Shown here piece after piece: positions 2,034-34,349 of a stretch of DNA of 48,948 bases. Location of the stretch: positions 1-48,948 of the forward strand of contig JAMDCK010000023.1 of NCBI GenBank assembly GCA_023488435.1, written 5' to 3'. Positions within the stretch are counted from its first letter, which is position 1; each line of letters begins with the position of its first letter. Made by a program: the position numbers and the translations under genes. A model generated the notes under the pieces. It saw only the letters and a program-made list of their open reading frames with translations, was not told the DNA's origin and ran no database searches. The stretch is from Actinomycetota bacterium (GTDB taxonomy: Bacteria; Actinomycetota; Coriobacteriia; Anaerosomatales; UBA912).

Positions 2034-2062
2034 TTGCGCTTGGATACCCCATAGGGTATTAT
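2034..2062 (+). promoter_or_regulatory. Promoter with CsoR/CstR-like operator upstream of the candidate selenoprotein
   Basis: TTGCGC (2034-2039) and TATTAT (2057-2062) are 17 bases apart, a good sigma70-type promoter. The spacer and the -10 box overlap the inverted repeat ATACCC-CATA-GGGTAT (2044-2059). Inverted repeats of this ATACCC/GGGTAT type are the operators of the CsoR/RcnR/CstR repressor family, which respond to copper, nickel/cobalt, formaldehyde or persulfide. The expected transcript starts near 2069 and includes the ATG at 2117, favouring that start over 2219. No CsoR-family gene is in the window, so the regulator assignment is inference. Confidence 0.6.
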
Positions 2063-2116: not shown

Positions 2117-2452
2117 ATGAGCAACCGCATATCTGTACAAGTCTTCGATAGAGCCTCTGGACAAAACTGCTTCTCCGTCGGCTGAGGGCCCTCTTGGTCT
2201 CCGGAGGAGATCACCACAATGATCGCGCATGAGCTGAATCGTCGATTCGGCGACTCGGTCACGGTCACATACCTGGACGCATCGAGCAGCGATGTTCGAG
2301 CGGAGCACTCGGAGATCATCGCGTCCATCGAGGCCAAGGGCCTCCTTTATCCCGTGACGCTGATCGATGGGGCCCCCAGATTCGAAGGCAGCGTCTCGTA
2401 TCCATCGATCATGAGGATCGTCACCGAGAAAGTCGCCGACTTGGGGCATTGA
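2117..2452 (+). CDS. Candidate small thioredoxin-fold selenoprotein (in-frame UGA read as Sec23)
   Basis: Reading from ATG 2117 (ribosome site AAGG at 2105-2108) through an in-frame TGA at 2183-2185 gives 111 residues. Predicted order: strand 1 (ISVQVFD, 5-11), active-site loop with Cys18 and Sec23 (NCFSVGU, then GPSWSPEEIT), helix 1 (to about 47), strand 2 (VTVTYLD), helix 2, a strand opened by a cis-Pro-like LYPVTLIDG, and a final helix. That is a complete thioredoxin fold of the small YuzD/DUF1462-like kind. The shorter reading from ATG 2219 (77 aa) has a good ribosome site (GGAGGAG) but lacks strand 1 and the redox loop, so it would be half a fold. A SECIS-like hairpin follows the UGA (2196-2212), and Sec use is supported independently by the formate dehydrogenase gene in this window. 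It appears monocistronic; dnaJ is convergent. The substrate is unknown. The alternative is a 77-aa hypothetical protein. Confidence 0.68.
2196..2212 (+). promoter_or_regulatory. SECIS-like hairpin after the UGA at 2183-2185
   Basis: GGTCTCC-GGA-GGAGATC forms a 7-bp stem (one G-U pair) with a GG-starting loop. The stem begins 10 bases after the UGA and the loop 17 bases after it. The clear SECIS of the formate dehydrogenase gene in this window has an 11-base gap, a 7-bp stem, and a GG-starting loop 18 bases after the UGA. The same bases also contain GGAGGAG, which could serve as a ribosome site for ATG 2219, so the element is ambiguous by itself. Confidence 0.55.
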
Positions 2453-5578: not shown

Positions 5579-6487
5579 TCACACGATGGCTGGCTCTGGT
5601 GGGAACTTCTCGGCGACTACGATACCGCCTAGGATCAGCATAGCGCCCAGCAGCTGAGTCAGGGTAAGACGCTCTCCGAGGACCAGCGCTGCCAAGGCGA
5701 CCGTGAACACGGGCTCGAAGGTGGAGACGATAGCGGCTCTCGATGCTCCCAGCCCTCGCAGCGCTTTGAGATAGAGAAGTATCGCAGCGAATGTCGGTAA
5801 CAGGACTATGGCCCCGAGCAATGCCCACGTCACCGTGTCCCACTCCTTGGCCGTGAGTGGAGTAGAGGTAATCCACGCCGCCACCCCACAAAGTATTGCA
5901 GTGAACGCGAATAGATGCACCATCAGCGTTGTGCGAGGGCGACCGGGCAGCCAGCGGTGGCTCACGAGCGTGAACAGGGCATACCCAGCGGCCGCGCCAA
6001 AAGCGAGAAGCACCCCGACTGCCGAGGCCTCCATCTGTCCCGAAGCTGGACCGACAACGAAGACGCACCCGGCAAAGGTAAGGCCCACGGCCCAGGCCCT
6101 GCCGTTGGTCAAAGGAACCTTGAAGAACAGCCTTTCGGCGATTACCACCATTGCGGGGTAGGTGTAGAGAATGATCGCCACCACGGCGACATCAGCATGG
6201 GTCAGCGCGAAGAAGAAGCAGATCGAGGCAGCCCCATATCCTGCGAGCGAGATGACAGCGTAGCGGCCGATGTCGCCGACAGGGGCCACAAGCTTGCCGG
6301 GCCGTGTGATTGCCATGTACGATGCCAGCAACAGTGCTGCCAGAGCGAATCGCCAAGTGAGCAACTGTAAAGGCGTTGCTCCGCGTTCGTAGGCCAGACT
6401 CGCCAGGATGGCGAGTGTCCCAAAACATGCCGCCGCCAAAACGGCGTACGCCAGAAACCCAGATGATGTCCGATTCGAACCGCTCAC
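5579..6487 (-). CDS. EamA-family (DMT superfamily) transporter
   Basis: A ten-helix drug/metabolite-type transporter of about 302 residues made of two EamA repeats of five helices each. Typical features include the start FLAYAVLAAACFGTLAILAS, the RFALAALLLASYMA helix 2, and the second-repeat ending ASRAAIVSTFEPVFTVALAA, followed by VLGERLTLTQLLGAMLIL, a classic EamA signature. The substrate is unknown. The GTG at 6487 gives the usual family length; the frame is open to 6637, but that would run across the VanZ start and adds nothing hydrophobic. The first 42 codons lie inside the 960-bp duplication, so they recur at 7321-7447. Confidence 0.88.
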   Translation of the reverse strand: MSGSNRTSSGFLAYAVLAAACFGTLAILASLAYERGATPLQLLTWRFALAALLLASYMAITRPGKLVAPVGDIGRYAVISLAGYGAASICFFFALTHADVAVVAIILYTYPAMVVIAERLFFKVPLTNGRAWAVGLTFAGCVFVVGPASGQMEASAVGVLLAFGAAAGYALFTLVSHRWLPGRPRTTLMVHLFAFTAILCGVAAWITSTPLTAKEWDTVTWALLGAIVLLPTFAAILLYLKALRGLGASRAAIVSTFEPVFTVALAALVLGERLTLTQLLGAMLILGGIVVAEKFPPEPAIV

Positions 6488-7320
6488 AAGGCTGATAAAC
6501 TGCCATGAGCGACGAGTGAAGTCAAGGAGGCCGCTGGTGCGGCGTTTCTCAAGATGGATTCCTGCCATAGGCGTTGTGTCGATCATTTGGTGGTCGTCAT
6601 CGCAGCCAGGCTCGAACATGCCGCCAAACGATTTCAACTCGCTGGCCCACTTCGTCGTGTACGCGCTCCTTGCTGTGGCGATTCACTTTGCGCTCAGCCG
6701 CGACCACGACGCTCAAACAGTGTGGGTCTTTGCGATCTTGCTCGCATCGGCTTACGGAGTCGTTGACGAAGTCCATCAGTCCTTTGTGCCAGGCAGAACG
6801 CCAGACGTCGTGGACTGGGGATGGGACACGCTAGGAGCGGCTGTCGGAGCTTCGGTAGCTCGCAGCGTCAGTGGCAAGCGCCTTCATCAGCCGAAGGGGC
6901 ACACCCCGACGATCAGAGGCGGCTAAGGCAGCACCGGGACGCATCAGTAAGAGTCTGCGGATCCGTCCTCATAGTAGGCATCCTCTTGAGTTGGAGGCTC
7001 GCGCCACTCTTCGTCCATGGCCAGCCCTGACCCACCTCTTCGGCCGTTGCTCTCTTCGCGGTAGTCAGGATACTCGGACTCCTGCGGCTCGCGCTCCTGA
7101 GGCTCGGACTCCTGCGGCTCCGAATGCTCGCCGCGTCGGCCTCTAGGCTCAGCGGGCTCGCTTTCATCGGCGGGATCGGCCTCTTCCTTAGGCTCGGCGG
7201 GGTCACTCTCGTACGTGCCCTCACTTTCACGGTACTCCGTCTCATCAGCATCGGTTGCTGGCGGAACGACAGGTGCGAGCTTCCTCTCGAGCGGCTCCTC
7301 GGCCGGTGGCTCGAGCGGAA
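6361..7320. repeat. Perfect 960-bp direct tandem repeat, copy 1
   Basis: These 960 bases are identical, base for base by my comparison, to 7321-8280, which follows with no gap. The unit contains the 5' end of the EamA gene, the complete VanZ gene and the 3' part of the anti-sigma gene. The junctions share at most one base of microhomology. Confidence 0.97.
6537..6926 (+). CDS. VanZ-family protein, copy 1
   Basis: The 129-residue product begins at GTG 6537, preceded by AAGGAGG with a 6-base gap. VanZ hallmarks are visible: N-terminal hydrophobic helix, SSQPGSN, LAHFVVYALLAVAIHFAL, then YGVVDEVHQSFVPGRTPDV and DWGWDTLGAAVGA. VanZ-like proteins are small membrane proteins named for the teicoplanin-resistance cluster; most have no proven role and there is no van cluster here, so no resistance function should be inferred. 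Upstream in-frame ATG 6408 lies in the divergent EamA gene and is not preferred. An identical copy is at 7497-7886. Confidence 0.82.
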   Translation: MRRFSRWIPAIGVVSIIWWSSSQPGSNMPPNDFNSLAHFVVYALLAVAIHFALSRDHDAQTVWVFAILLASAYGVVDEVHQSFVPGRTPDVVDWGWDTLGAAVGASVARSVSGKRLHQPKGHTPTIRGG

Positions 7321-7447
7321 GCAACTGTAAAGGCGTTGCTCCGCGTTCGTAGGCCAGACTCGCCAGGATGGCGAGTGTCCCAAAACATGCCGCCGCCAAA
7401 ACGGCGTACGCCAGAAACCCAGATGATGTCCGATTCGAACCGCTCAC
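6944..7447 (-). pseudogene. Chimeric ORF: EamA N-terminus joined to anti-sigma C-terminus
   Basis: Because the 960-bp unit is repeated, the minus strand carries a hybrid reading frame. It starts with the first 42 residues of the EamA protein (from GTG 7447; frame open to 7597), then joins in frame at the repeat junction (7320/7321) to the anti-sigma C-terminal tail beginning PLEPPAEEPLERK. The product would have one or two membrane helices and an acidic tail. It is a by-product of the duplication, not a gene in its own right. If the duplication is an assembly error, it does not exist. Confidence 0.85.
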
Positions 7448-8280
7448 AAGGCTGATAAACTGCCATGAGCGACGAGTGAAGTCAAGGAGGCCGCTGGTGC
7501 GGCGTTTCTCAAGATGGATTCCTGCCATAGGCGTTGTGTCGATCATTTGGTGGTCGTCATCGCAGCCAGGCTCGAACATGCCGCCAAACGATTTCAACTC
7601 GCTGGCCCACTTCGTCGTGTACGCGCTCCTTGCTGTGGCGATTCACTTTGCGCTCAGCCGCGACCACGACGCTCAAACAGTGTGGGTCTTTGCGATCTTG
7701 CTCGCATCGGCTTACGGAGTCGTTGACGAAGTCCATCAGTCCTTTGTGCCAGGCAGAACGCCAGACGTCGTGGACTGGGGATGGGACACGCTAGGAGCGG
7801 CTGTCGGAGCTTCGGTAGCTCGCAGCGTCAGTGGCAAGCGCCTTCATCAGCCGAAGGGGCACACCCCGACGATCAGAGGCGGCTAAGGCAGCACCGGGAC
7901 GCATCAGTAAGAGTCTGCGGATCCGTCCTCATAGTAGGCATCCTCTTGAGTTGGAGGCTCGCGCCACTCTTCGTCCATGGCCAGCCCTGACCCACCTCTT
8001 CGGCCGTTGCTCTCTTCGCGGTAGTCAGGATACTCGGACTCCTGCGGCTCGCGCTCCTGAGGCTCGGACTCCTGCGGCTCCGAATGCTCGCCGCGTCGGC
8101 CTCTAGGCTCAGCGGGCTCGCTTTCATCGGCGGGATCGGCCTCTTCCTTAGGCTCGGCGGGGTCACTCTCGTACGTGCCCTCACTTTCACGGTACTCCGT
8201 CTCATCAGCATCGGTTGCTGGCGGAACGACAGGTGCGAGCTTCCTCTCGAGCGGCTCCTCGGCCGGTGGCTCGAGCGGAA
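7321..8280. repeat. Perfect 960-bp direct tandem repeat, copy 2
   Basis: Second copy of 6361-7320 with no difference seen. Removing one copy leaves EamA, VanZ and anti-sigma all intact in single copy, so the extra unit adds only a second VanZ and a hybrid ORF. Perfect identity means either a very recent duplication or an assembly artefact. Confidence 0.97.
7497..7886 (+). CDS. VanZ-family protein, copy 2 (identical duplicate)
   Basis: This is identical in sequence, GTG start and ribosome site to the VanZ gene at 6537-6926. It arises from the 960-bp tandem duplication. It should be counted as one gene if the duplication proves to be an assembly artefact. Confidence 0.8.
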   Translation: MRRFSRWIPAIGVVSIIWWSSSQPGSNMPPNDFNSLAHFVVYALLAVAIHFALSRDHDAQTVWVFAILLASAYGVVDEVHQSFVPGRTPDVVDWGWDTLGAAVGASVARSVSGKRLHQPKGHTPTIRGG

Positions 8281-14729: not shown

Positions 14730-16751
14730 TCATCCAGAGAACAGTGTCCGTGGGTCGATGATTAGGGCCACCCGTGCATCTCCTAGGACAGTAGCGCCAC
14801 TAAGGCCCTTGGTATCCCGGAACATAGGTGACAGCGGCTTGATGACAGCCTCGGTGCGCCCACCAAGACTTTCGACAATCAAGCCTCGCTTACCCCCATC
14901 TGGACTGTGGATCAGAATGATCTGCTCCTTAGAATCGGCTGCCGGGCCATCGTTGTCGCTCAGTCCCAAAACGCGATCGAGTCTGTGTAAGGGAATCACC
15001 GCATCATCTCGGTAGACCATTACCGGCATCCCATCGATCGTATCGATGCTCACAGTTTCTGCGGCCAGGACTTCATCCACAAAGCTCAGGGGCAGGGCAA
15101 ATGTCTGTCTCCCCGCACTGACCAGAAGGACCTGGATGATCGCGAGCGTCAACGGCAACGTCAACTCGAAGTCCGTGCCAACACCACGTTTCGAACTGAT
15201 CGCCAACGACCCGCCAAGATACTCAATCTTACCTTTGACCGCATCCATTCCCACCCCGCGCCCGGATACCCGAGTGGCATTTTCCACAGTGGAGAACCCA
15301 GGGGCGCAAGTAAGCATGAGCACGTCTTCGTCATCGAACGTCGCCCTGTCATCCGGGTTCACTAGACCGACCGAGCAGGCCTTGGTCCAAATGCGCTCCG
15401 TATCGATGCCCGCTCCGTCATCGCTGATGGTAATCCGGACAGTGTCCCTCTCGCGCTTGGCGGATAGAGTGACGGTCCCCTTGGGTGGTTTGCCAGCAGC
15501 CTTACGGGCATCGGCTTTCTCGATCCCATGATCGATGCTGTTTCGGAGTAGATGGACGATCGGGTCTCCAATTTCATCGAGAACCGTACGATCCAGCTCT
15601 ATGCCCAGGCCATCCATTCGAAACACAACTTCTTTGTCCAGCTCGCGGGCTAGATCCCGAACCATCCGCGGGAACCTGTTGAAGATGTTCTCCACCGGAA
15701 CCATGCGTGTGTCCATTACCACGTACCGAAGTTCCGTCGATATCCTGTGCAGGTCCTCCACGGCATCATCCAAAGCGCGATTTCCCATCGCTTCGGCGAT
15801 TCGGTCCAATCGGGAACGGAACGTGATCAACTCACCCACCAAGTCGACCATGGAGTCTAGGTATCCGATTGAGATGCGGACCGTTTGCGTTTCGAGGATC
15901 ATCGGGGTGTCTCGGCGTCTGGATGAACCGGAGGAACCATGTTGGTCGCTAGAAGCTTTGGTCTCACTCTGCGGCACTATGGCTTCCTCGACGACTCTGG
16001 CATCTGCGACTTCGGTCACCGCGGTGACGGCTCTTGTCAACTCGGAAGCGGCGCTCGCGGTCTGAACCTTCACCGTGAACTCGAGGTCGAAGCGTTCATC
16101 TTCGATATCCCTCGCCGAAGGGATAGTGTCAGTCACGGTCCCCAGATAGTTCAGGCGCTTGATCACCATGTACGCCCTCACAGCTTTCAGCACACAGTCC
16201 TCTTCAAGCGTGACTACCACGGAGTACGAACGCGCGCCATCACCTTCGGTGCGCGGCGTCGCTGAGTGGCCGCCGGCTTCAGAAGCCAATCGAACTGTCG
16301 AAGGATCACTTCCCCTGGAGTCGTCAACATGCTCATCAGCTAGAGGCCCCGACTTCGGGTCCCGAGAGTCCGCCGTCTGCATCTCGACTATCCTAGCTAC
16401 CAACTCGCTGAAATCGGTGGCATCAGTTTGGCCCGAGGACTCTTCGGCTATTGATCTTCGAACTGCATCAACCGCGTCGAGCATCAGGTCGACAAGCTCA
16501 GCATCCACTTTCCGGTCGCGGCGCCTGACCCGATCCATCAGTTCTTCCATAGTGTGCGTGAGATCAGCAGTTCGCTCGTAGCCCATCGCGGCCGACATGC
16601 CCTTCAGGCTGTGGGCACCTCGAAACACCACTTCGACGTGCGCGAGGTCATGAGGGGTTTCCTCCAGTGCGAGTAGCCCGTCAGTGATTGACTGCAAGTA
16701 GTCGGTACTCTCAGACAGAAAGAGGTCCTTGTAGGCGTCCATCTCACTCAT
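14730..16751 (-). CDS. cheA: Chemotaxis histidine kinase CheA
   Basis: At 673 residues this is full length. P1 Hpt domain at 1-110 with phosphorylatable His47 (RGAHSLKG); a CheY/CheB-binding P2-like domain about 180-260; P3 dimerisation about 290-360; P4 ATPase with N box (NSIDHGIEKA), G1 (DDGAGID) and G2 (GRGVGMDAVK) about 360-530; and a CheW-like P5 domain at the C-terminus. It phosphorylates CheY and CheB in response to the receptors. Its start overlaps the cheB stop by 8 bases. Confidence 0.96.
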   Translation of the reverse strand: MSEMDAYKDLFLSESTDYLQSITDGLLALEETPHDLAHVEVVFRGAHSLKGMSAAMGYERTADLTHTMEELMDRVRRRDRKVDAELVDLMLDAVDAVRRSIAEESSGQTDATDFSELVARIVEMQTADSRDPKSGPLADEHVDDSRGSDPSTVRLASEAGGHSATPRTEGDGARSYSVVVTLEEDCVLKAVRAYMVIKRLNYLGTVTDTIPSARDIEDERFDLEFTVKVQTASAASELTRAVTAVTEVADARVVEEAIVPQSETKASSDQHGSSGSSRRRDTPMILETQTVRISIGYLDSMVDLVGELITFRSRLDRIAEAMGNRALDDAVEDLHRISTELRYVVMDTRMVPVENIFNRFPRMVRDLARELDKEVVFRMDGLGIELDRTVLDEIGDPIVHLLRNSIDHGIEKADARKAAGKPPKGTVTLSAKRERDTVRITISDDGAGIDTERIWTKACSVGLVNPDDRATFDDEDVLMLTCAPGFSTVENATRVSGRGVGMDAVKGKIEYLGGSLAISSKRGVGTDFELTLPLTLAIIQVLLVSAGRQTFALPLSFVDEVLAAETVSIDTIDGMPVMVYRDDAVIPLHRLDRVLGLSDNDGPAADSKEQIILIHSPDGGKRGLIVESLGGRTEAVIKPLSPMFRDTKGLSGATVLGDARVALIIDPRTLFSG

Positions 16752-22104: not shown

Positions 22105-25100
22105 CTAACGCGAGTAGGTTTCGATTCCCCCTGCGTGACACTGAGTAGCGCAGCTCCCGCCTGTCGGCGACTCGACCCAACCCAGCCCAGTCCTTATCAG
22201 ATGTGTGTTCTGTCGCGAGCCGTGGGACACGTGACAGGTAGAACACGCAAGTCCTGCCCCACTTGTGTGCAGCGAGTGCAATCTGGGCTCAGCCAAGCTG
22301 GGGTCTCTGAAGTTGCTGGTGGATGCGGGCACAAGGTCCTCGGTGCCGGTGAAGTAAACCGTGTACCTGTGACATGAGTAACACAGCATCGCCTCATCAT
22401 CGGGACGCGCGCCCCAGTACTCCCTGCTTAGCAGTGGAGCGGCCTCGCTGGTGTGAGGGCCGCGCGGTTTTGTTGGGTCGCTATTGCCGTGGCAGTCCAC
22501 ACAGTACAGCACCGTCGAGGTCGTCAACGCCGGCGTGGTAGCTACGAACGAGCCTGGCGTGTTCTCGGCTTGAGATGTGCCCGACTGGATCAGGTGGAAC
22601 GATGGGTTGTTCACGTTGAACTGCATTGCGATGTCATCCGGACCTCCTGGAGCGCGACTCCAGCCGGAGTGGCACTCGAAGCAGACCTCGTGCTCGTAGC
22701 GGACCCCTTGCCGCTGGAGGTATGTGATCGTCGAAGTCGTATCGAACCGCGCATCCACACCCCATACTCCACGCAGGGTGCCGTAAACGGCGGGTGCAGT
22801 GGCATTTCGCGGGGTAGGCGTGCTTGTCGCAGCGTGCGGACTGTGGCAATCCACGCACTCGACGTGCAGCTCAGCCGGTGGACTCTCGGTGGAGACATGC
22901 GCGGTGAACGGCTGCGTCGCGTCCCTTGCGACCGACACAGGATGCCGAGAAGCCCCGACACCTCCCAGGTCGACGACTGCCACGGCAGGCGTGCTACCGG
23001 CCCTCTCGGCGCCTCCGGCACTGTAAGTCACCGGTGCTACAAGCGCATCTCCCGCGGCGTTCGCGCGGAACACCTGCACCGAGGGGGCCACATGGCGATC
23101 GGTCCGCAGCGGGCCCCAGGACCCAGCGTTGGCTACCACGAGCTCACCGCGGCCACCAACCGCCGAGTCAACATCGCCAAACGCGAGTGAGGCGGTCGCA
23201 TAACCCAGCCCAGTCGCCGAGAAAACCGGAGGCGTCACGAGGCCAGCGGCGGAATCGCGCTCGAACACGTTGATACCACTTGTGCCGCCACTGTTGCGCA
23301 GAGCAACGACCGTCTCGGCGCCTGCGACTTCGGGAAGGACATCAGCGATGAGCGTGTCCCACGCGACCGCTCCTGCCGGTCCGGTAGCAGCATAAGACCC
23401 CACCAACCCGGTGCTGACGCTGAAGATCGACACCGTGTCCGTAGTCTCGAGCGAGTTGGCAACCGCGATCTCGTTGCCGGGGCTGTCCTGGCTCGCATCG
23501 CCGATGCTCGGGCCCCGCGGACCCGCCAGGACGCCCTCGGTGGCGGTGTAGCTGCGCACTGGGATCGCCCCTAGCTGCCCGGGGGTCGTCACAGACTCGC
23601 TGTACACACTGATCGACGGGCCGCTTGTGGCGGTGATAGCGATGTCGCTCCTGTCGGCGCGGGTCAAGCGCCCAATCGCGATTCCGGACACATCGTCATC
23701 GAGCGCGATGGGGCCGCCGATCTCGGCAAGTCCGCCGCCAGTGGCATCCCAGCGGTAGAGCCAAAGCGTGCTGTTGGCAGTCGCATCTGCCGAGCGGGAC
23801 ACCACGACCACCTCGGGTCTTCCAGAGCCGTCAAGGATCACGTCGCCGATGGCGACCATCGATGGAGTCGTGGTTATGGAAACCGTGGAAACCGTCACCC
23901 CGGCCAGCGGATCAGGTGTCGCGAGCGTCAAGCGGCGGGCGACGGAGTCCGCGATCACAAGTTCGCTGAAGCCCAGTCCTCGAATGTCGCCGGAGGCCAT
24001 GTCAGCAGCCACCCCTGGGACATCGAACTCCCGGGGTCCCACCAATCTCTGAGGTGCGGTGCCTGTCGTCGGCTGAGAGTAGAGTGCAAGTCGGTCGAAA
24101 ACGCTCGGCTCACGGCCAGCGTTGTACGCGACTGCGACCTCAAGCCTGGGTGCCTCGGCAGGTGGGAAGCGGAACTGCGCGATGTCGGCTGCGACCGTCG
24201 CGAGTGCGGAGGTGCTGCTGTGGCAAGCATCGCAAAGTTCGCGGCCGGGTCGCTCCAGCAACCTCGGGAAGAGGTTGCCCGCCGTGTCAGTGCGCCCCAT
24301 CGGATTGTGGCAGGTCTGGCATTCGCCGATGGTGCGGCTTGATTCCGCCGAGGCCCACTCGCCCGCGATCGCGAGAGTTGCCGGAGCCATCCCGTGAACA
24401 GTGAACTCGAACACCGTGCGGCCAGGGAATGTGCCCTGAGCCCCCGCATGGCAAGTGAAGCAGAAGGTGCGATCATTGGCAGCAACCGTCTGAGTCGATG
24501 GCGCGGCTGGCGGAGCGACAACGGTCCTGATGAGCGGGGCGACTGGAGACCCGTGGGACACATGGCAGTTGGAGCAGGTCACACCGGTTCCGGAGGCCGG
24601 GGCGGTCATCTCGGCAGCATGGGCGGTCCTGCGCCATACTTCGATGCCGCTGAAGCTACTGCCCTCCCGGATGCCATGACACGCGGCGCAGAAAGCATCG
24701 CCGGAGTTGATCGTGACGGTGCTGCCCTGACTTGCAACCACGCTCAGCAGTGCCGGATAGGGCATCCCGCCGGGCATCCGCTGGGAGCCGTGACTGTCGT
24801 GGCAGGAAGAGCATCGCTTCGGCGATGGACCGAACTCGGAAGGCGAGGGAGCGATACTGTGCGCCGAGGAAGCCTCGAAATCCGATTGCACGTCGATTGC
24901 CGAGCCCAGGCCTTCGACCCCGTGACATGAGAAGCATAGTTGCGTATCGGCGGCACCCGAGTACACGCCGACAATGAGCGCAGTGCGGGTGGTGTCGCCG
25001 GAGCTGCCTTCGATGGTCCTAGTGATGTCGCTCGCCGCTGTGTGGGCACGATGACAGATAGCGCATGCGTCAGTCTCGAGCTCGGTAGGCACATGGGGAG

Positions 25101-25239
25101 GTACGACGGTTGTGGCTAGAACTGCCGGGGCACAAGCGAGGGCTATAGCGGCGCAGCATGCAGTAGCCACCAGGAACCCGGTGCGCCGAACACCCTTGCC
25201 CGAATACGCGACAAAGAGTCGCGGTATCCCTAGCACCAT
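22105..25239 (-). CDS. 14-haem cytochrome c with a central propeller-like segment
   Basis: From ATG 25239 (AAGGA upstream) the protein has 1044 residues with an N-terminal hydrophobic segment (about 22-42). I count 13 CxxCH motifs plus one CxxxCH (CATQCH) near the C-terminus. Eight haem motifs (CAICH to CDACH) lie in the first 350 or so residues and six after residue 800. The Cys-free stretch between (about 360-790) has repeated strand-rich segments with DG/GD turns, like FG-GAP/VCBS propeller blades. It is probably an exported electron carrier with a binding or scaffold domain between two haem blocks. It lies downstream of the CWB2 wall protein. The redox partner is unknown. Confidence 0.85.
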   Translation of the reverse strand: MVLGIPRLFVAYSGKGVRRTGFLVATACCAAIALACAPAVLATTVVPPHVPTELETDACAICHRAHTAASDITRTIEGSSGDTTRTALIVGVYSGAADTQLCFSCHGVEGLGSAIDVQSDFEASSAHSIAPSPSEFGPSPKRCSSCHDSHGSQRMPGGMPYPALLSVVASQGSTVTINSGDAFCAACHGIREGSSFSGIEVWRRTAHAAEMTAPASGTGVTCSNCHVSHGSPVAPLIRTVVAPPAAPSTQTVAANDRTFCFTCHAGAQGTFPGRTVFEFTVHGMAPATLAIAGEWASAESSRTIGECQTCHNPMGRTDTAGNLFPRLLERPGRELCDACHSSTSALATVAADIAQFRFPPAEAPRLEVAVAYNAGREPSVFDRLALYSQPTTGTAPQRLVGPREFDVPGVAADMASGDIRGLGFSELVIADSVARRLTLATPDPLAGVTVSTVSITTTPSMVAIGDVILDGSGRPEVVVVSRSADATANSTLWLYRWDATGGGLAEIGGPIALDDDVSGIAIGRLTRADRSDIAITATSGPSISVYSESVTTPGQLGAIPVRSYTATEGVLAGPRGPSIGDASQDSPGNEIAVANSLETTDTVSIFSVSTGLVGSYAATGPAGAVAWDTLIADVLPEVAGAETVVALRNSGGTSGINVFERDSAAGLVTPPVFSATGLGYATASLAFGDVDSAVGGRGELVVANAGSWGPLRTDRHVAPSVQVFRANAAGDALVAPVTYSAGGAERAGSTPAVAVVDLGGVGASRHPVSVARDATQPFTAHVSTESPPAELHVECVDCHSPHAATSTPTPRNATAPAVYGTLRGVWGVDARFDTTSTITYLQRQGVRYEHEVCFECHSGWSRAPGGPDDIAMQFNVNNPSFHLIQSGTSQAENTPGSFVATTPALTTSTVLYCVDCHGNSDPTKPRGPHTSEAAPLLSREYWGARPDDEAMLCYSCHRYTVYFTGTEDLVPASTSNFRDPSLAEPRLHSLHTSGAGLACSTCHVSHGSRQNTHLIRTGLGWVESPTGGSCATQCHAGGIETYSR

Positions 25240-25324
25240 CGTGAGACCGTCCTTGACTGCCGGAAAGACGTTGTATATCACGTGACTGACACTGAGTAGC
25301 AGTATATCGCCGAATAACCCGAAA

Positions 25325-25362
25325 CGCACTGGAAATCCACGTATACAAGCAATTCCAGTGCG
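25325..25362. promoter_or_regulatory. 10-bp perfect inverted repeat between wall protein and cytochrome genes
   Basis: CGCACTGGAA (25325-25334) and TTCCAGTGCG (25353-25362) are perfect complements separated by 18 bases that contain GTATAC. The element begins about 20 bases after the CWB2 gene stop and lies some 85 bases before the 14-haem cytochrome start. Only UUU follows on the minus strand, so it is a weak terminator at best; an operator or mRNA-stability hairpin fits equally well. Confidence 0.45.
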
Positions 25363-25382
25363 GTCAAAATCGTACGAGTGTC

Positions 25383-27431
25383 TCATCGTGGTGCGGTTGC
25401 GGCGAGTATAGCGGATGCTCTTACGGGCTCGGTCAGTACGCTCGTCCCCCCCACGAAACGAATTCTCTCAATTCGACCCGCGTTTGCGGTAAGGAGGTCT
25501 CTGGCTTCATTGTGCAGCGATTCGCTTTCTGTGAGAACCATGACCGATCCTGTCAGTCCTTGGACCACACCGCCAGCGATCGCATCGGGGAAGTCGCGGC
25601 CAGTAGCAAGAGCCACATCACTCACGCCTAGGCCACGCTCAATGGATCTCTCTGCTATGACCCGAGCCGTAGCGAAACGATTCGGGCCGCCCCATCGTCC
25701 GGCGATGTCTATATTCTTATCGGCCACGCTGGATTCTGTGTCAGGACTTACCGCTCCTTCCCCTCCCAGCAGATATACCCTCGTGACACCCTGCGCGCGC
25801 ATTGCCTCAAGAACAGCACTGTCGATTCCTCGTTGTGGGTGCGCCAGGTAGACGGGATACCCGCTGTGAGCAGCTAACGGAGCCGCGGCTAAAGCGTCAG
25901 GAAAGTTGCCTCCTGTCGCGATAAAAGCCGTGCCGTCCCATTTCGGCCTTCCGGTCACGGAGACCGTCGCGCTCGCAATCAAGTGTGCGGTAGCGTAGCG
26001 ATCAGCGCCGCCGATTCTGCGAACATTCTGAGAGCCGACTATCTCTGCCAGCTGGGCTTGCACATCTTTGCTGACGACCCCCGTCCCGCCGACGATGATG
26101 ATCCTGTTCGCCTTTATGCCACGGATGTAATCGGCGACTTCGGCAGGTAGCTTGTCGGGGCGAGTAAGCAAAACTGGAGCCTCAAGAGCACCAGCTAGCC
26201 CTGACGCCGCAAGCGCGTCAGGCCAGTTCGTCCCTGAAGCGACTATCACCGTCTTTTGGCCGTCAGGTCCTGGCGGCATCGGCTGCAATGCAGGATACAC
26301 GAGCTTTGCTGCAGCCAGGGCCGTTGCGAATCGATCCGCACCATCCACTCGCACCCTCACCGGAGCCGACGGTGGCACTGGAGCACTCCAGGTCAGGCCT
26401 CCATCGGTGGTGCGCACAATCAGCCCACCATCACCTACGGCCACTCCACTCGTAGCGTCGATTGCGACCACATCTCTCAAGTGGGCAGTCGATCCTGAGG
26501 TCTGGGCGAACCAAGTGACACCTGGGTCCGTGGTGCGCAGGATGGTTCCCGACTGCCCAACGGCCCATCCCGAAGTGGTCCCCCAGGCCATTGAAACGGC
26601 ATTGATCGACACCGAGGTGCCTGAGTTCCGCGCCGTCCACAACGCACCGCCATTGTCAGTGCTACGAATCCTACCGGCCTCACCAACTGCCACGCCGCTG
26701 TCTGTGTCGGCGAAAGAGACATCGAAGAAGGCACCCGTCTCGCCGGAGAAGCTCTGCTCTGTCCAGTTCCCGCCATCCATCCGCCAAACGATCGCTCTAT
26801 TGGGGATGAGCAAAAAGTCATGCCCTACCGCCCATGCCCGCGTGGGCGACACCGCATCAATTCCGTAAAAGTAGCCTAAGCCGTCGCGCGGAAAGGGTGG
26901 GGCGTCTGCCGGCGGGTCATGCGAGCCTGCCAGGTGCGGCGTACCCCAATCACGGGCTCCGGTGGAGCTGGTCCAGATGGCGGGCTGCGTACCCTGCGCA
27001 CCTCCCACAACCGCTACCACCGAGGTGCTCAGGGCGCTGATTCCATGCATCTGTTCGGCTACGTAGAACAGTCCGGCAAGGTCATTGGAGATCAGAGACC
27101 AACTCTGACCCCCATCGGTTGTACGGAAGACCGCTCCGGCCAGCGTGACTGCCCATCCATTCTGAGAGTCTGCGAAGTCTATTCCGGTGATCGTATGTCC
27201 CGTAGCACTGTTCACGCGATCCCAGGTAGCACCGGCGTCGGTGCTCCTGAGGATAGTTCCCGCCTCTCCGGCGGCGAAGATGACATCATCCGCGACAGCC
27301 ACCGCATTGAGATTGACTGTGATCTTGCCTGCGTCAATGGTCCAAACCGCATGAGCCGCCGGCATCGGGGGCACCAGGGCGAACGCCAAAACCACAGCGA
27401 GAACAAGGCGCACAATCGCCGGTAAGTTCAT
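25383..27431 (-). CDS. Cell-wall-anchored YCF48/BNR-like propeller protein with three CWB2 repeats
   Basis: This 682-residue exported protein begins with a signal peptide (about 1-28, ending PMPAAHA). Residues 30-340 hold repeated blades with signature TILRSTDAGATW, VFRTTDGGQSW, ILRTTDPGVTW and IVRTTDGGLTW, typical of YCF48/BNR-type seven-bladed propellers. Residues 345-682 hold three cell-wall-binding type 2 repeats (VDGADRFATA, IGGADRYATA and WGGPNRFATA starts, with FPDALAA and VGG signatures). CWB2 modules bind anionic wall polymers in Gram-positive bacteria. It probably acts on the cell surface as a scaffold. Its start overlaps the lipoprotein stop by 4 bases. Confidence 0.88.
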   Translation of the reverse strand: MNLPAIVRLVLAVVLAFALVPPMPAAHAVWTIDAGKITVNLNAVAVADDVIFAAGEAGTILRSTDAGATWDRVNSATGHTITGIDFADSQNGWAVTLAGAVFRTTDGGQSWSLISNDLAGLFYVAEQMHGISALSTSVVAVVGGAQGTQPAIWTSSTGARDWGTPHLAGSHDPPADAPPFPRDGLGYFYGIDAVSPTRAWAVGHDFLLIPNRAIVWRMDGGNWTEQSFSGETGAFFDVSFADTDSGVAVGEAGRIRSTDNGGALWTARNSGTSVSINAVSMAWGTTSGWAVGQSGTILRTTDPGVTWFAQTSGSTAHLRDVVAIDATSGVAVGDGGLIVRTTDGGLTWSAPVPPSAPVRVRVDGADRFATALAAAKLVYPALQPMPPGPDGQKTVIVASGTNWPDALAASGLAGALEAPVLLTRPDKLPAEVADYIRGIKANRIIIVGGTGVVSKDVQAQLAEIVGSQNVRRIGGADRYATAHLIASATVSVTGRPKWDGTAFIATGGNFPDALAAAPLAAHSGYPVYLAHPQRGIDSAVLEAMRAQGVTRVYLLGGEGAVSPDTESSVADKNIDIAGRWGGPNRFATARVIAERSIERGLGVSDVALATGRDFPDAIAGGVVQGLTGSVMVLTESESLHNEARDLLTANAGRIERIRFVGGTSVLTEPVRASAILAATAPR

Positions 27432-28336
27432 CGTGCGAGTCTTTCAGCAAGTGTCATCATATCGCGTTCGATCCGAGCACCATCATCGCCGACTGCGGTT
27501 CCTTCGAGAGCCACCAGCAGGTTCCCCTGCAAGAAGGCCACGACTGCAACTGGTCCGTTCACCCCGAAATATGCGGGATCTCCCTTCAGCGTGAACGACC
27601 TGCCGGCCTGCGGATAGCTCGATCGGATCGCTGTATCCATCCGCTTTCTGGCAGCAGCCGCATCTGCGAATTGCTCCACCACCACAACGAATCCTCGGAA
27701 TGTGTCCTGTGATGTCGGCACATAGTGTCTAGTGAACACGAAGGCGTCCACAATCAGTTCTTGTCCATTGAGGCCAGGAAGAGTGTCAGGCGTGTAGGGC
27801 AGGAACAATGAAATTGGACCCTCGTCTACGGGAGGCGGAGCATCGGTTCGGTCACCGCCGCCATCGGGAGCCGGTGGTGTGACGCCCGGCGTGGTGGGAC
27901 GTGGCGAAGTCCCCGGGCGGGGCACGATGGCTACGTCTACCGGAGGTGTCCGGCCTGCTTCGAGGTCAGCCAGTTGTTGCGGGGCCCTTCGGAATCTCGG
28001 GTCTTGAGCGACCACTTCTGCTAGAAGCCGCTGTGCGCCCTGTAGATCACCCGAGTCGAGTGCCCGCTGGCCATCCGCGTAGAGGGCAGCGAGCTTTGCA
28101 TGCAGATCGCACACCTCAACACGAGTGGTGACCTTGTACTGGTCGACCTCATCTGCGGGCACCTCCTTCTCGACGGTGGTGTCCGAAACGATCTCGCCTT
28201 CGGTGCAAAGCACGATCTCGCCGGTTCGAACGGTCACTGTGGACTGCCGCTGCTGGCAGCCGGTCAAACCGACAGAGGCGGCGGCCAAAGCTAGCAGCAG
28301 ACCCATCGAAAGGATTGCTCTGATGCGTTTGCTCAA
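27428..28336 (-). CDS. Lipoprotein of unknown function
   Basis: About 302 residues from the TTG at 28336, which has an AGGTGAG ribosome site; the frame is open to an ATG at 28357. A basic start and hydrophobic stretch lead to a lipobox VGLTGC, so the mature protein should be lipid-anchored at the outer face. A short helical, TPR-like region (about 75-125) and a Pro/Thr-rich linker (about 130-170) precede a C-terminal domain with about 130 residues. I do not recognise the C-terminal domain. It is coupled to the downstream wall protein, suggesting joint function at the surface. Confidence 0.72.
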   Translation of the reverse strand: MSKRIRAILSMGLLLALAAASVGLTGCQQRQSTVTVRTGEIVLCTEGEIVSDTTVEKEVPADEVDQYKVTTRVEVCDLHAKLAALYADGQRALDSGDLQGAQRLLAEVVAQDPRFRRAPQQLADLEAGRTPPVDVAIVPRPGTSPRPTTPGVTPPAPDGGGDRTDAPPPVDEGPISLFLPYTPDTLPGLNGQELIVDAFVFTRHYVPTSQDTFRGFVVVVEQFADAAAARKRMDTAIRSSYPQAGRSFTLKGDPAYFGVNGPVAVVAFLQGNLLVALEGTAVGDDGARIERDMMTLAERLAR

Positions 28337-28358
28337 AGTTGTCTCACCTGTTTCCATC

Positions 28359-28387
28359 GGAAGGGCCGGGTAACCCCCGGCCCTTCC
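28359..28387. terminator. 12-bp GC-rich perfect hairpin after the formate dehydrogenase/cytochrome genes
   Basis: GGAAGGGCCGGG and CCCGGCCCTTCC flank a 5-base loop. The hairpin lies 49 bases after the stop of the 6-haem cytochrome gene and 22 bases before the lipoprotein start, so it probably ends or trims the formate dehydrogenase transcript. Neither strand has a U tract after it, so it is not a standard intrinsic terminator. Confidence 0.55.
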
Positions 28388-28436
28388 ATCTGGCTATACA
28401 GCTTTCTTTGGTCGTACCCTTACTACGTCGAGCTTC

Positions 28437-29654
28437 TTACTTGTTGTGGCAGGACTGGCACACTCCGCGGTTATCGAGCCTTAGCAATGAATTGCCTCCG
28501 CTGGGGGGTACGCCTCCAGTGCCACTGTTGGGCTGGGGATCCCGTGAATCAGCTACGTTAGCATAACCCGTCATCTCAGATGACGAGCCGTGTGCTACGT
28601 GGCACGTCAAGCAGCTCATCCAGTCCGATGAATCGTTGGTACCAGCGTTTTCCGGGTCATGCGAAAGCGCGAGCCCCGGTGCGTTGACGTTGATCGGACG
28701 CGGGCCGAGGTAGCCGGCGAGATCGACGTTGATGGGATGCCTGTGTCGGACAGCCGCTCCGAATCCATCGCCTGAGTCATAACCCCTTGCAGTGTCCACA
28801 ACCAGCGTCTCATTTCCGCCTTCGCCAGGGGTCAGGCTGGTGTCGAAGACCGCACCTGTAGGCTGCATGTACTGGATGTGACAAGCCGAGCACCAGCCGC
28901 TGATTCCCCTAGCCGTGTCCAGCCCCGGAGGCTTCGCATGCAGAGGTGTGGTGTAGTTGGGCTGGTAGGCTGCCATCTGAGCAGCGCCAGGCTCATGCAG
29001 GAGCCATCCCATAGCTGGGTATCCAGGCTCGGCGGAAACAACCCAAGGCGTCGGCATGGGGTTCTCTGGCGTGGCCCCCGGAGCTGTCGGATCGTAACCA
29101 CCCACCGTGCGTCCGTTCACCCTGTCCTTGAGGAGTCGGTAGTTCGAACTACCGTGCACATCATGGCAGGAGGTGCAGCTCATGACGATCTGCGGATCGC
29201 CGTCACTCAGGTTGCCGAGTAGATCGGAATCCGTGGCTCCACCGTAAGCGAACCATGATGCACCGGTGTACATGTGCGAGGTCGGGAACATCCCTGAGTC
29301 GAACCCTCCAGCGTTGAGGCGACCACCGGTGATGTTGCCAGCCAGGGTTCCTTCGTAGATGCCTTCTTCAACGTTCGTGTCTGCGCCCAGTCCAACGGAA
29401 TCGTGGCACGTGTAGCAGAACTGATACACCTCACTTGCAGTGCTCATGAGAAGCGCACTGCCTTGGGTGTTGTCCGCTCTGGTCCATGTGATGCCACTCG
29501 CAGCGGTATGGGCCCGGTGACATCCAGCACACGAATCCGTGTCCATGGAGTATCCACCGTGCGGACCGAAATTGGCCATCGCCACCCCGGGCGTCAGGGC
29601 GAACACCAGCACCGCCAAGGCTGACACAAAGACTAGAAGTCTGATTCGGCGCAT
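28437..29654 (-). CDS. 6-haem cytochrome c, probable electron acceptor of formate dehydrogenase
   Basis: The 405-residue exported protein has a signal peptide (about 1-27, MRRIRLLVFVSALAVLVFAL start) and six CxxCH motifs: CAGCH, CYTCH, CTSCH, CSACH, CLTCH and CQSCH, the last near the C-terminus. Several are followed by HGS or HTAA, a pattern shared with the 14-haem protein, so the two are related. The gene follows formate dehydrogenase beta by 6 bases. No cytochrome b gamma subunit is present, so this protein likely takes electrons from the beta subunit, as a cytochrome c subunit does in Desulfovibrio FdhABC3. Confidence 0.87.
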   Translation of the reverse strand: MRRIRLLVFVSALAVLVFALTPGVAMANFGPHGGYSMDTDSCAGCHRAHTAASGITWTRADNTQGSALLMSTASEVYQFCYTCHDSVGLGADTNVEEGIYEGTLAGNITGGRLNAGGFDSGMFPTSHMYTGASWFAYGGATDSDLLGNLSDGDPQIVMSCTSCHDVHGSSNYRLLKDRVNGRTVGGYDPTAPGATPENPMPTPWVVSAEPGYPAMGWLLHEPGAAQMAAYQPNYTTPLHAKPPGLDTARGISGWCSACHIQYMQPTGAVFDTSLTPGEGGNETLVVDTARGYDSGDGFGAAVRHRHPINVDLAGYLGPRPINVNAPGLALSHDPENAGTNDSSDWMSCLTCHVAHGSSSEMTGYANVADSRDPQPNSGTGGVPPSGGNSLLRLDNRGVCQSCHNK

Positions 29655-29660
29655 CTCAGA

Positions 29661-30521
29661 TCACCCCTTTCCTTCGGTAGCGGCTTCTTCGGCAAGTTTG
29701 ATCCTTCGTGCAATCACGGAGAACACGCCTCCTGCCACGAGCGCAGGTACCACTGCGGCTTGGGCGACCGACTGTGTGAGTACCGTCGACATCAGCGACC
29801 CGACTCGTCTTTGATCCAGCGGATTGGCCCGGGGTGCGGCAAGGACATAGTTCTTGCTTGCCCACATCACGCTGCCGTTACCTTGGAACGAAAGGTATCC
29901 ACCTGTGCGAATCCACTCGCGGATGTTGGCTCTAGTATCCCACATCATCGCCTTTGCTGGGCATGTGTACACGCAAGTGGGCTCATGTGCCGTCTCCGGA
30001 ACCGGAGGGTTGCTGAGTCTCGTGTGGTTCCGGGTCGTAGGCAGTGGATTGCCATATGCAGGATCAAGCTGTGCTGTTGCTCCAGCCCGCCCATGACACA
30101 GAGTGCACTTCCACGCCTTTGCAGTCGGGAACCGCTCGTTTCCTACCCCTACTCGCGGGTATCCGCCGTGTGGACAATCCGCAACACACTGACGGGTGCA
30201 CTGCACACCTGCCCTGTTCGTTGCACCTGGGGTGCACTTGACTGGATCGATGGACACGGCCCCGTTGGGTTGCTTGGCGAGTGCCGTGAACGGACACCGC
30301 TTCACACAGGGAGGATCGGGGCAGTGCCAGCAACTGAACCTGATGAAGGGACCCATGTCCAGTCGCTTCTGCGAGTTGATGACCATCCTGTCATCCGGTG
30401 CGACCCTATGGACACCCGGGTTCAGAGACATCATCTTCCACGTCCGCTTGCAACCAATGGTACATCCATTGCAGCGAATACACTTGTCTACGTCTTGAAA
30501 GACCGCCATTACATTAGCCAC
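29661..30521 (-). CDS. Formate dehydrogenase iron-sulfur (beta) subunit
   Basis: The 286-residue protein has 16 or so Cys arranged as four ferredoxin-type clusters: CIRCNGCTIGCKR, CWHCPDPPCVKRCPF, CTRQCVADCPHGG with CTLCHGR, and CVYTCPAKAM. This is the FdnH/HybA-type electron relay, taking electrons from the alpha subunit. It has no signal peptide and would cross the membrane with the Tat-dependent alpha subunit. One hydrophobic helix near the C-terminus (about 250-270) could anchor the complex. It begins 14 bases after the alpha stop. Confidence 0.92.
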   Translation of the reverse strand: MANVMAVFQDVDKCIRCNGCTIGCKRTWKMMSLNPGVHRVAPDDRMVINSQKRLDMGPFIRFSCWHCPDPPCVKRCPFTALAKQPNGAVSIDPVKCTPGATNRAGVQCTRQCVADCPHGGYPRVGVGNERFPTAKAWKCTLCHGRAGATAQLDPAYGNPLPTTRNHTRLSNPPVPETAHEPTCVYTCPAKAMMWDTRANIREWIRTGGYLSFQGNGSVMWASKNYVLAAPRANPLDQRRVGSLMSTVLTQSVAQAAVVPALVAGGVFSVIARRIKLAEEAATEGKG

Positions 30522-30535
30522 CGCTCATCACCTCC

Positions 30536-33500
30536 TTATGCCTTCTCGATCCTGCAAAGCAGGGCCTTGTATTCGGGAATGATCGTATTCGCATCGAAAG
30601 CGTCATGACATAGGTCGTTGGCACGAGACCCCTTGGAGAGACCTCGGTCGCCCCAGTGGAACGGAATCGCCACCACTCCACGGCCGACTCTCTGGTTGTT
30701 CTGGAGTCCTACGCCGACCTTTGCCCGGAATCCTTTCGCGAACTGACCGCTACCGGGGGTGGCGGCGTTCTGGTCTGCGATCGAATCGCTCCGGCATGTG
30801 ATGATGTTGACCCAGTCACCCGTCTTGATTCCCAATGCTGCCGCATCAATCGAGTTGATCTCGATCCACGGATCGGGCTCCAACTCGACGTTGACAGCGT
30901 TGTTGCGGGTCATCGGTCCACCCTGGAAGTGCTCTACGGAGCGCATGGTCGTCAGGACCAGTGGGTAATCGGCCACGTTGATCCCGCCTCTTCCAGCAAG
31001 AGGGGTGTCCGATCTGATAAGGTCCCACTGACCTGTCCCACGCGTGTTGCGACCCCAGGCGGCAACCAAGTCCGGCCTAGGCGACTCGTACGGCTCCGTG
31101 TGCCCAGGGAACCTACCCGACAGCGAATGCCCGCCTTGGAAGTGAGGGCTCGCCGGATTGGTGTATGGCTGGCCGATGAACGCCACGTCCGGCTTATCGG
31201 CCAAGCGATGGTAGTACCTGAACCAGCGCGAGTAGTTGAGGTCGCGGCCAGAACGGGTAGCGCTCGTGACGAAAATGCGCTGCACCGAGTCCGGTCCCAT
31301 GAACCAGTCGATGACGTCCCCGGGGACCTCGTTGTTGTTATACAGAACGCGCCTGTTGACCAGCCAGGCATATCCCCAAGCTGGATACGCAAGGGTGCCA
31401 TTCGGGTCAGTGGTCACGCGCTGCTTCGCACGATTGTTCAACAGCCAAGGATCCTGGCCAGCATGTCTGTTCGTCGTCCGGTCAAGGCTGTATCCACCCG
31501 TCACCAACCAGCCGGCACCGGTCCCCGGCGTACAGGTCTCACGGTAGATTTGCTCGGTAATCCACTCCGAGCCGTAGACGGGACCCGTCCTCGGTGCGGT
31601 TTCTGCACCACGCCAGATCTCGGCTTCTCCACTGACGTCCTCGAACGCTGTCGCTCCACCGGGAGTCCAGCCGTATCGATCGCCGTATAGCGTCTGGTAG
31701 GCACTCGTGAACGTAAGGCCCAAATCCGTCCAAGCGGCGGTGAGGTGCGAGAATGCACCGGCGCCATCCAGTGCGTGAGCAAGACGGAACAGAAGCTCGA
31801 TGTCTGACTTGCTGTTGCCCTTCGGCTTGGTGGCTCGCTCGCGCCACTGCAGCACGCGCCCTGAGTTAGCGGAGCTTCCGGCCTCTTCGACGTAGGAGCA
31901 CGCGGGCAAGAGGTACGTGACGCCATCGGGCTTCCTCGGCAGTGCAGCCGTCTCGGTCTCGAACATGTCGACTACTACCAGCGTGTCCAGCGCATAGATG
32001 CCGTCGCGGATGTTCTTCAGGCGAGCCTCGGTGACGGCAACATTCATGCCCCACATCACGATGGCCCTCAGTTCACCAGCAGCTGCTTTTCTGAACATCT
32101 CGATGTGATGATCGCCGTTGGTCTTGGGCCACAGATCGTAGAGCGCATTGGTGCGGGCTCGGTTCGCCACTGGGGTGCTCATCCACGCCGGACTTCCGAA
32201 GAAGTTGTAGGTCATGTTGAGGAATCCACGTTGTTGCAAACTGAGCGCAGCCGTGTTGTAGGCGTCGTCGTAGGAGCCGTTCATGTTGGTCCTCACGCCG
32301 CTCCCATTGACCGGCACGCCCCAAAGTCCGCCGTCCATGTACTTACCGAACGCATTCGGGTCAGCGCTTGTCATCGTGCTTGGGTTGCCCGAGTAGAACG
32401 GGATCAGGTTGAAGAGATTCCCGTTGTCCGTCGAGCCTTGGACGTTGTGGATGCCTCGCAAGGCGTTGATTCCTCCACCAGCGCGTCCCAAGTTGCCCGT
32501 CAAGGACATCAGGACGCTGAAAGCCCTCACGTTCTGAGCGCCATGCGTGTGCTGGGTGAGACCCATCGCATAGAGCATCGTCGTGGCCTTGTAGCCTGGG
32601 ACTCGGGGGTCCTGGGATCCCGTACCGAACTGGGAACCGGTGACAGGGTGACCCGGAGATGAGCAGCGACCATTCTCAATGTAGGCATTGATGACGTAGT
32701 CGAGATCATCAACGGTACATCCACAGATGTCAGCCGCAGCCTCCCGAGTGTAGGGATCCAGGTGCGCCTTCAAGCGGTTGTACACCGTGTTCGGGTCGCT
32801 GGTCACATCAGTTGCCCGCCTGGGGAAGTTCGAGATGATCGTGTTGGCTGGCTCGCCACCAACTGCAGGAAGGCCCGTTGAAGCGACGATCGTCTCGCGC
32901 TCGTAGTCGGTGCCGTCGGCGCGCAAGATGAAGCGCGCGTCCGTGTGACGCGAACAGTTGGGTACGGCAGAAGGAGTGCTTGCCGAGCCCGGTGCGCCGT
33001 CAGTGAAGAACATCCCGGCTCCGCCTGCTGCCCAGTTTGCAGGTGCCGACCAGTTTAGGTACTCGAAGAACCTCATCCTGACAGGATCGGACGCCGGGCG
33101 AGCCTCCAGGTTCGCGATGATCCCTCTGGACACGGCGTTACAGAACGCAATATCCGTCCCTGGGCGTATCCTGATGAACCTGTCTGCCACGGTTGCGGTC
33201 CTCGTCTTCCGAGGATCGATCACGAGCAGCTTTCCGCCCTTTGCCCTAGCTCGGTTGATGTGCGCCATGCTCATCGGGTGGTTCTCGGCGGGGTTACCGC
33301 CCATTACGACTATGAGCGACGAGTTGCCGAGGTCGTTCCATGTGTTCGACATCGCACCACGCCCGTACGCGGCGGCCAGACCGGCCACCGTGGACGAGTG
33401 TCAAAGTCGAGCCTGATGCTCGACGTTCGATGTTCCGAACTGAGCGATCAGGCGGCGATAACTGAAGTTCTGCTCGTTGTTCAGGTGCGAGGAGCCGAAG

Positions 33501-34030: not shown

Positions 34031-34162
34031 GTGTCCTTCCCTCCTTCACTTCTCGATCCTATAACCGGACATACCCACTTTCGTTGGGGAAATCACGCGG
34101 TCGCGTTCAGTTGGGGGGCGGCATCACCGACCTCTGAAAGACGTCAGCAAGAGGTGGGGAGC

Positions 34163-34218
34163 AAGAAAAGACCGGCCAACCAGGGGCTAAGATCCCCAAT
34201 CCTGTTGAGCCGGTCTTT
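34163..34218 (-). terminator. Intrinsic terminator inside the formate dehydrogenase leader (attenuator)
   Basis: Read on the minus strand, AAAGACCGGC (34218 to 34209) pairs with GCCGGTCTTT (34176 to 34167), enclosing an inner CAGG/CCTG and GGGG/CCCC hairpin, and is followed by TTTTCTT. It stands between the promoter (34350-34378) and the ATG at 34030, so transcription of the dehydrogenase operon would need read-through or antitermination. Confidence 0.65.
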
Positions 34219-34343
34219 GCGGTTTGCATCAAACCATTCACTTCCTTACCCCGAAGGTCTCGCATGAAAGCCCAGCTTTCTTGCGGTTAGCCTGTAAAGC
34301 GGATCGGGCTGCCGGCCCTCTAGTAACATCCGTTACAAGCTCT
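34219..34343 (-). promoter_or_regulatory. Structured 5' leader of the formate dehydrogenase operon (riboswitch-like)
   Basis: The leader between promoter and attenuator can fold into several hairpins. GTAAC-GGAT-GTTAC is at 34323-34336, CGCA-GAAAGC-TGG-GCTTTC-TGCG with one internal mismatch at 34261-34285, and GGTTT-GATGC-AAACC at about 34224-34238. Together with the terminator this looks like a ligand- or protein-controlled attenuator. A molybdenum/tungsten cofactor riboswitch would suit the gene it controls, but I cannot match a known consensus by eye. No ORF is seen in 34031-34403. Confidence 0.4.
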
Positions 34344-34349
34344 GCAAAT

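Follow-up and report, generated by a model that had tools for sequence, protein, structure and literature searches.

Near the start of the window, by which we mean the whole stretch of 48,948 nucleotides that was analysed, lies a tiny gene on the forward strand (2117-2449, with a TGA stop at 2450-2452) whose translation gives 111 residues and a single in-frame TGA at codon 23 (2183-2185). With this TGA read as selenocysteine (Sec, U), the product is MSNRISVQVFDRASGQNCFSVGUGPSWSPEEITTMIAHELNRRFGDSVTVTYLDASSSDVRAEHSEIIASIEAKGLLYPVTLIDGAPRFEGSVSYPSIMRIVTEKVADLGH, which carries a C-x4-U-G-P motif around Sec23 and has a thioredoxin fold in an AF2 model. A Shine-Dalgarno-like AAGGTG (2105-2110) stands six bases before the ATG at 2117, a bSECIS hairpin, UGGUCUCC-GGA-GGAGAUCA, follows the UGA at 2195-2213 on the same strand, and the operator-like palindrome TACCCCATAGGGTA precedes the gene at 2045-2058 (+). 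The palindrome falls between weak promoter-like hexamers (TTGCGC-17-TATTAT, 2034-2062, +) that were read off the sequence and remain an inference only; a sigma-70 scan found no promoter at its threshold. The only entry in the ordinary ORF list at this locus is a frame of 77 residues (2219-2452, +), which is a truncation of the real protein. The preliminary description, made from the sequence alone, had claimed an in-frame TGA at codon 23 with a 77-codon frame downstream, a ribosome site before the ATG and a merely truncated product in the output of gene callers, and all three claims held.

The window contains a second selenoprotein gene, a formate dehydrogenase alpha-type gene on the reverse strand (30539-34030) with an in-frame TGA at 33403-33401 that corresponds to Sec210. 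The reverse-strand stretch from 22105 to 38752 encodes multiheme cytochromes, this Sec formate dehydrogenase, a 4Fe-4S protein and NHL and cell-wall-binding proteins, a gene content from which extracellular or periplasmic electron transfer can be inferred as a possibility. A CheA region (14730-16751) matched the TGACAY pattern and was rejected as a selenoprotein. Finally, positions 6360-8110 hold a direct duplication spaced by 960 bp, with an exact repeat of 300 nt and identical ORFs at 6408-6926 and 7368-7886; this may be a real tandem duplication or an assembly artefact, either being possible.

Comparison of homologs establishes that the gene is coding through the UGA. A six-frame search recovered homologs in 55 of 61 related genomes and in 36 of 40 genera, with one TGA inside each match, and in all 30 loci fetched from this search the TGA occupies the same column with a Cys five residues upstream. 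A scan of named contigs, nearly all labelled as Coriobacteriia, Anaerosomatales or with broader actinobacterial MAG names, gave 48 loci, every one with the TGA and the upstream Cys and none with Cys at the Sec position. Among the 54 unique sequences the TGA is universal (54/54), the upstream Cys is always kept, the frame is open in all, and neither Cys nor Trp is found at the UGA codon in any homolog. Over the 18 codons that lead up to the UGA, the frame is free of stops in all 54, compared with 19 of 54 that have a stop in each of the other two frames, and differences there are concentrated at third codon positions (0.27/0.21/0.52 for the three positions), which argues for selection at the protein level. 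The third-position difference is 0.52 before the UGA and 0.56 after it, and drops to 0.007 in codons 28-32. D11, C18 and G22 are invariant before the UGA, and Pro79 is invariant in branch A1; codon 35, the ATG at 2219, is ATG in only 3 of 53 homologs. The criterion for a bacterial selenoprotein, a conserved UGA with coding conservation on both sides, is therefore met, and the UGA-containing gene is kept across a whole order of anaerobic Actinomycetota, the Anaerosomatales. The check proposed at the outset, that homologs should have UGA at position 23 and a conserved upstream region, was passed, and the opposite outcome that would have refuted the proposal, homologs starting at the ATG at 2219 without upstream conservation, was not borne out. 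We consider it very likely that the protein is a selenoprotein and that this gene, cut short by annotation software, encodes a selenium-containing thioredoxin-like protein; the incorporation of selenium itself is inferred from comparative sequence.

The SECIS structure is likewise shown by comparison. The hairpin consists of 8 bp (UGGUCUCC paired with GGAGAUCA) closed by the GGA loop at 2203-2205, starts at the 10th base past the UGA and has an energy of -11.6 kcal/mol in a 40-nt segment. Published bSECIS rules (PMC13188914) specify a loop of 3-9 nt, a stem of 4-16 bp, a G at loop position 1 or 2, a distance of 16-37 nt from the UGA and an MFE at or below -7.5, and the hairpin, whose loop starts 17 nt past the UGA, satisfies every one of them. 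A single-sequence fold test was uninformative (z about 0, energy not unusual); conservation of the hairpin in the 54 unique homologs, and in 12 that are more distant, exceeds chance. The 8 bp and the loop G are kept in 51 of 54 homologs, and codons 28-32 (Ser-Pro-Glu-Glu-Ile) are almost frozen as TCT (50/50), CCG (53/54), GAG (50/50), GAG (54/54) and ATC (53/53), with one synonymous change only, while the neighbouring codons 24-26 and 33 are as variable as the gene at large (third-position difference elsewhere about 0.55). In 65 sequences, other branches included, 517 of 520 hairpin cells are paired, compared with 200-365 when the partner is shifted by 1-3 bases; of 1000 shuffles, not one reached 517. 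Because the shuffle control ignores relatedness, the stronger point is that changes on both sides of the stem separate the branches: at the closing pair the Anaerosomatales have C-G, 10 distant sequences have U-A and 2 have A-U, and double-sided changes at two basal pairs bring the number of such pairs to three. A change at the closing pair replaces Pro by Leu or Gln, whereas the matching base in Glu30 can change silently (GAG to GAA); selection on the protein alone therefore does not account for these changes. The hairpin originally described, of 7 bp with a GG loop 10 bases after the UGA, is thus real but has 8 bp and a GGA loop, and its proposed likeness to the SECIS of the formate dehydrogenase gene held, as the latter has an 8-bp stem that begins 10 nt after its UGA and a GGUCU loop at 18 rather than 17 nt.

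Comparison of loci shows that in the Anaerosomatales the selenoprotein gene usually forms a two-gene operon with the gene of a [4Fe-4S]-type ferredoxin, which comes first. A 7-Cys ferredoxin gene lies directly upstream in 41 of 49 loci and ends 61-86 nt before the UGA, mostly about 10 nt before the start codon, and in 45 of 46 ferredoxin-bearing relatives the ferredoxin adjoins the selenoprotein gene. Its Cys pattern is C-x5-C-x5-C ... C-x2-C-x2-C-x3-C. We observed in this ferredoxin family (L048-L094) the motif CDRSPxCPxRRxCP ... CxGCGxCxRVC, in which the C-x5-C-x5-C spacing of the first three Cys is unusual. The window and its sister locus L047 have no adjacent ferredoxin, which is absent in the window's own genus, so another donor or a different partner would be needed there. 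A DUF362/Fer4 gene follows immediately downstream in nine loci. Comparison also shows a palindrome, TACCC-N4-GGGTA, ahead of the operon in 46 of 49 loci, with no copy elsewhere in these loci (chance expectation 0.17 loci, and 0.01 in the window); it stands at about -340 where the ferredoxin is present and about -138 where it is not. It also precedes three distant branches (the ferredoxin/coiled-coil branch, the trxA branch and L103). Measured against the CsoR operator criterion, TAC-X9-GTA with G-tracts, the spacing is TAC-X8-GTA in the 46 loci and X9 in L103. We infer by analogy a CsoR-like repressor, although its identity has not been established. Repressors of the DUF156 family answer Cu, Ni/Co or formaldehyde, and CstR answers persulfide and also selenite and tellurite (PMC5016687), and the signal that would induce the operon is therefore left open.

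If the UGA is read as Sec, the machinery for doing so should be present, and in most relatives it is: selA was found in 50 of 61 and tRNA-Sec above cut-off in 53 of 61, with serine tRNAs possibly among the lowest-scoring of these. In the window's own assembly (96% complete), neither selA, selB, selD nor tRNA-Sec was found above cut-off, so the other stated refuter, absence of selA/B/C/D from the genome, is literally true of this assembly. The gene order in relatives is a GGDEF gene, selD, in some cases a DsrE-like gene, selA, selB and tRNA-Sec, and the GGDEF gene, which G003 and the same-genus genome G001 share at 79% identity, is likewise absent from the window's assembly, where the best match is a 26% paralog. 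In G001 itself, a 3.7-kb contig holds selD and selA, a second contig of 3.3 kb holds tRNA-Sec with a selB fragment, and in relatives the sel cluster breaks at contig ends. Given that the GGDEF neighbour is missing too and that selD, selA and tRNA-Sec occur in the same-genus genome, the evidence favours an assembly gap, which we regard as likely but not proved; true loss of the Sec trait, with the conserved neighbour of selD gone as well and the cluster prone to splitting at contig ends, was considered and judged unlikely. A different picture is given by G017 (99% complete), in which selA, selB, selD and tRNA-Sec were not found over the cut-off: its locus keeps the palindrome (L143) as well as the ferredoxin and flanking DnaJ-like genes, between which the selenoprotein gene alone is missing. 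As a separate observation, selD has an in-frame TGA of its own in seven relatives (G001, G003, G012, G014, G028, G053 and G055), from which we infer that SelD is likely itself a selenoprotein there.

Comparative evidence also shows that the protein has a thioredoxin fold and belongs to a family related to DUF1462 and ArsD, both of which were earlier placed in the thioredoxin-like clan (PMC3091736). The AF2 model has a pLDDT of 89 and a pTM of 0.82, its worst-modelled part being the active-site loop, with residues 19-22 below pLDDT 50. The query scores 27.1 bits against DUF1462 (PF07315; gathering score 25), all 28 aligned members match DUF1462 (E up to 1) and 21 match ArsD weakly. Foldseek ranked 1xg8, a DUF1462 protein of S. 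aureus, at the top (E 1.7e-5, TM 0.61, about 20% identity) and placed ArsD 3kgk (TM 0.61) among thioredoxins; searching PDB sequences with the protein on its own returned chance matches only, while a profile search recovered 1xg8. In the hhalign alignment to ArsD (92.5% probability), C18 and U23 correspond to the second and third Cys of the ArsD site. The three As(III)-binding Cys are essential in ArsD of E. coli R773 (PMC4562236), where they are Cys12, Cys13 and Cys18; here Cys13 and Cys18 have counterparts (C18 and U23) but Cys12 has none, so the three-Cys criterion is not met, and neither is the NCBIfam chaperon_ArsD cut-off (90 bits), with weak matches in 6 of 28 members (best E 6.5e-4). 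With one of three ligands missing and the score far under the cut-off, identity with ArsD was rejected. The suggested relationship to DUF1462/YuzD held for fold and remote homology, and ArsD is a second relative that had not been named.

Beyond the order, a 300-genome sample of the class yielded two further members and a 397-genome sample of the phylum 19 members outside the class. The distant branches are typified by CSGGUGPSWSLEE, CGFGUGSYGLSQAE and RGGGUxPxLSLEE and by the singletons L103, L104 and L120, which are tentative because each is a single sequence; every branch has its UGA at or near the same place, in L104 just before the matched stretch. SelB was above cut-off in 19 of 24 genomes searched, including those of nearly all distant branches, and searches of plasmids and viral contigs returned no relatives. 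One distant branch has an operon of a ferredoxin of the same family, a small coiled-coil protein and the selenoprotein, and another has trxA, the selenoprotein and a zinc ribbon. We noted that the coiled-coil protein, with a LILGQTGVHIN motif, occurs in this position in L107, L108, L115 and L116, and that a relative of it lies upstream in L103 and L106. Genes for arsA/arsB or acr3 were not found beside the gene in Anaerosomatales loci, only in the distant L104/L145 branch, where the order is ArsD-ArsR-ArsA-ArsA-[U protein]-zinc ribbon-ACR3. The U protein there is a candidate Sec protein with AGAGGUGPVCEPADCGPAQ (L145, 3440-4020) for which a TTG start is likely; the ACR3 is a fusion with a universal stress protein.

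Altogether, a selenoprotein with its family, operon and palindrome is the likely best overall explanation of these data. In our proposed mechanism, SelB bound to the hairpin at 2195-2213 would insert Sec at the UGA at 2183-2185, Cys18 and Sec23 would form the reactive pair, the ferredoxin of the operon would reduce their selenenylsulfide, and the selenolate would then reduce either a protein disulfide or some small species containing sulfur, selenium or a metalloid. We lean, by a narrow margin, towards such a role as a ferredoxin-linked thiol/selenol oxidoreductase on account of the thioredoxin fold, the reactive Sec, the invariant Pro79 and the redox partners in two separate branches; the redox role, the ferredoxin partnership, the repressor and the substrate are all inferred. 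Against it, C-x4-U is not a classical CxxC or UxxC active-site motif, the surrounding loop is the least reliable part of the model, and the window's own genus has no ferredoxin gene next to this one.

Three rival explanations have to be weighed against this model. That the real protein is the 77-residue ORF starting at 2219, with the upstream part a leader or a decayed gene, is supported by its being the sole ordinary ORF at the locus; however, the conserved, stop-free upstream coding pattern in 54 homologs, the rarity of that ATG and the loss of strand 1 and the active site from such a product all but exclude it, and we rejected this protein. Alternatively, the UGA might stand for an ordinary amino acid, Trp or Cys by near-cognate decoding, or be read through for regulation only, in either case without selenium, as the lack of sel genes in this assembly would allow. 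A covarying bSECIS hairpin kept at the canonical distance, sel genes in most relatives, the same genus included, a Sec-less relative without the gene and the consistent absence of Cys and Trp from the codon make this very unlikely.

The main rival, which remains possible, accepts the same selenoprotein but gives it an ArsD-like function, in which Cys18 and Sec23 would bind a soft metal or metalloid, for instance As(III) or Cu(I), and pass it to a pump or enzyme without electron shuttling. In its favour are the alignment of both residues with As(III)-binding Cys, the single-sequence L104/L145 relative in an arsenic operon and the resemblance of the palindrome to the site of the copper repressor CsoR; against it, the protein has only two of the three ligands, the gene lies outside ars operons in the Anaerosomatales, this genome encodes a separate canonical ArsD elsewhere, and the partners in other branches are redox proteins (ferredoxin, thioredoxin). 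Returning to the oxidoreductase model, it is tempting to speculate on a bolder reading, against which we would still wager: an old, obligately Sec-containing superfamily, with at least four branches in several anaerobic Actinomycetota lineages, all with UGA and none with Cys, might form a ferredoxin- or thioredoxin-linked module under one CsoR/CstR-like site that defends against or metabolises reactive sulfur, selenium or soft metals, its C-x4-U descending from or sharing the ArsD loop. If true, this would link metallochaperone and redox chemistry.

The 119-family selenoprotein catalogue of 2026 (PMC13188914) has no C-x4-U, DUF1462 or ArsD entry, NCBIfam 20.0 gives no family name to any member, and the open-licence literature searched held nothing relevant on selenoproteins in DUF1462/YuzD/ArsD or in Anaerosomatales/Coriobacteriia; description elsewhere is not excluded. 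Within that catalogue and literature, the original statement that no described family has exactly this motif held. New here are the ferredoxin operon, the CsoR-like palindrome and the precise loss of the gene from the Sec-less relative. The results add a family of selenoproteins, nearly ubiquitous in one order, whose C-x4-U motif is unlisted and which escaped gene callers, Pfam names, NCBIfam and the 2026 catalogue alike; since no Cys version has been seen in the clade, methods based on Cys homologs would overlook it. They connect Sec with the ArsD/DUF1462 branch of thioredoxin folds, in which it takes the place of a known metal ligand, and the conserved ferredoxin partner and control site make the function testable.

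Among known systems, the control site is most readily compared with the type 2 operator of Streptomyces lividans CsoR (PMC3902906), a G-tract pseudopalindrome with flanking TAC/GTA, from which the new palindrome differs by one base less in the spacing. DUF1462/YuzD (PF07315; 1xg8) resembles the new family in that all 28 aligned members match it and Sec23 falls on a Cys of 1xg8 in the profile alignment; 1xg8 differs in carrying that Cys at the Sec position and in an identity of no more than about 20%. The likeness to ArsD (PF06953, NF033727; 3kgk, 3mwh) extends to residue-level equivalence, with C18 and U23 on CC-STGV-C-GPS, Sec23 on the third arsenite-binding Cys and the G-P shared, but with two of three ligands and a location outside ars operons in the Anaerosomatales the new protein differs from it. 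Finally, SaoT, HUIPC-motif proteins, Trx-like Sec.1/Sec.2, Grx and UXX-star share with the new protein a small thioredoxin fold and a reactive Sec near the N-terminus, while these known thioredoxin-fold selenoproteins have UxxC, CxU, UxC and similar motifs (PMC13188914) in contrast to C-x4-U.
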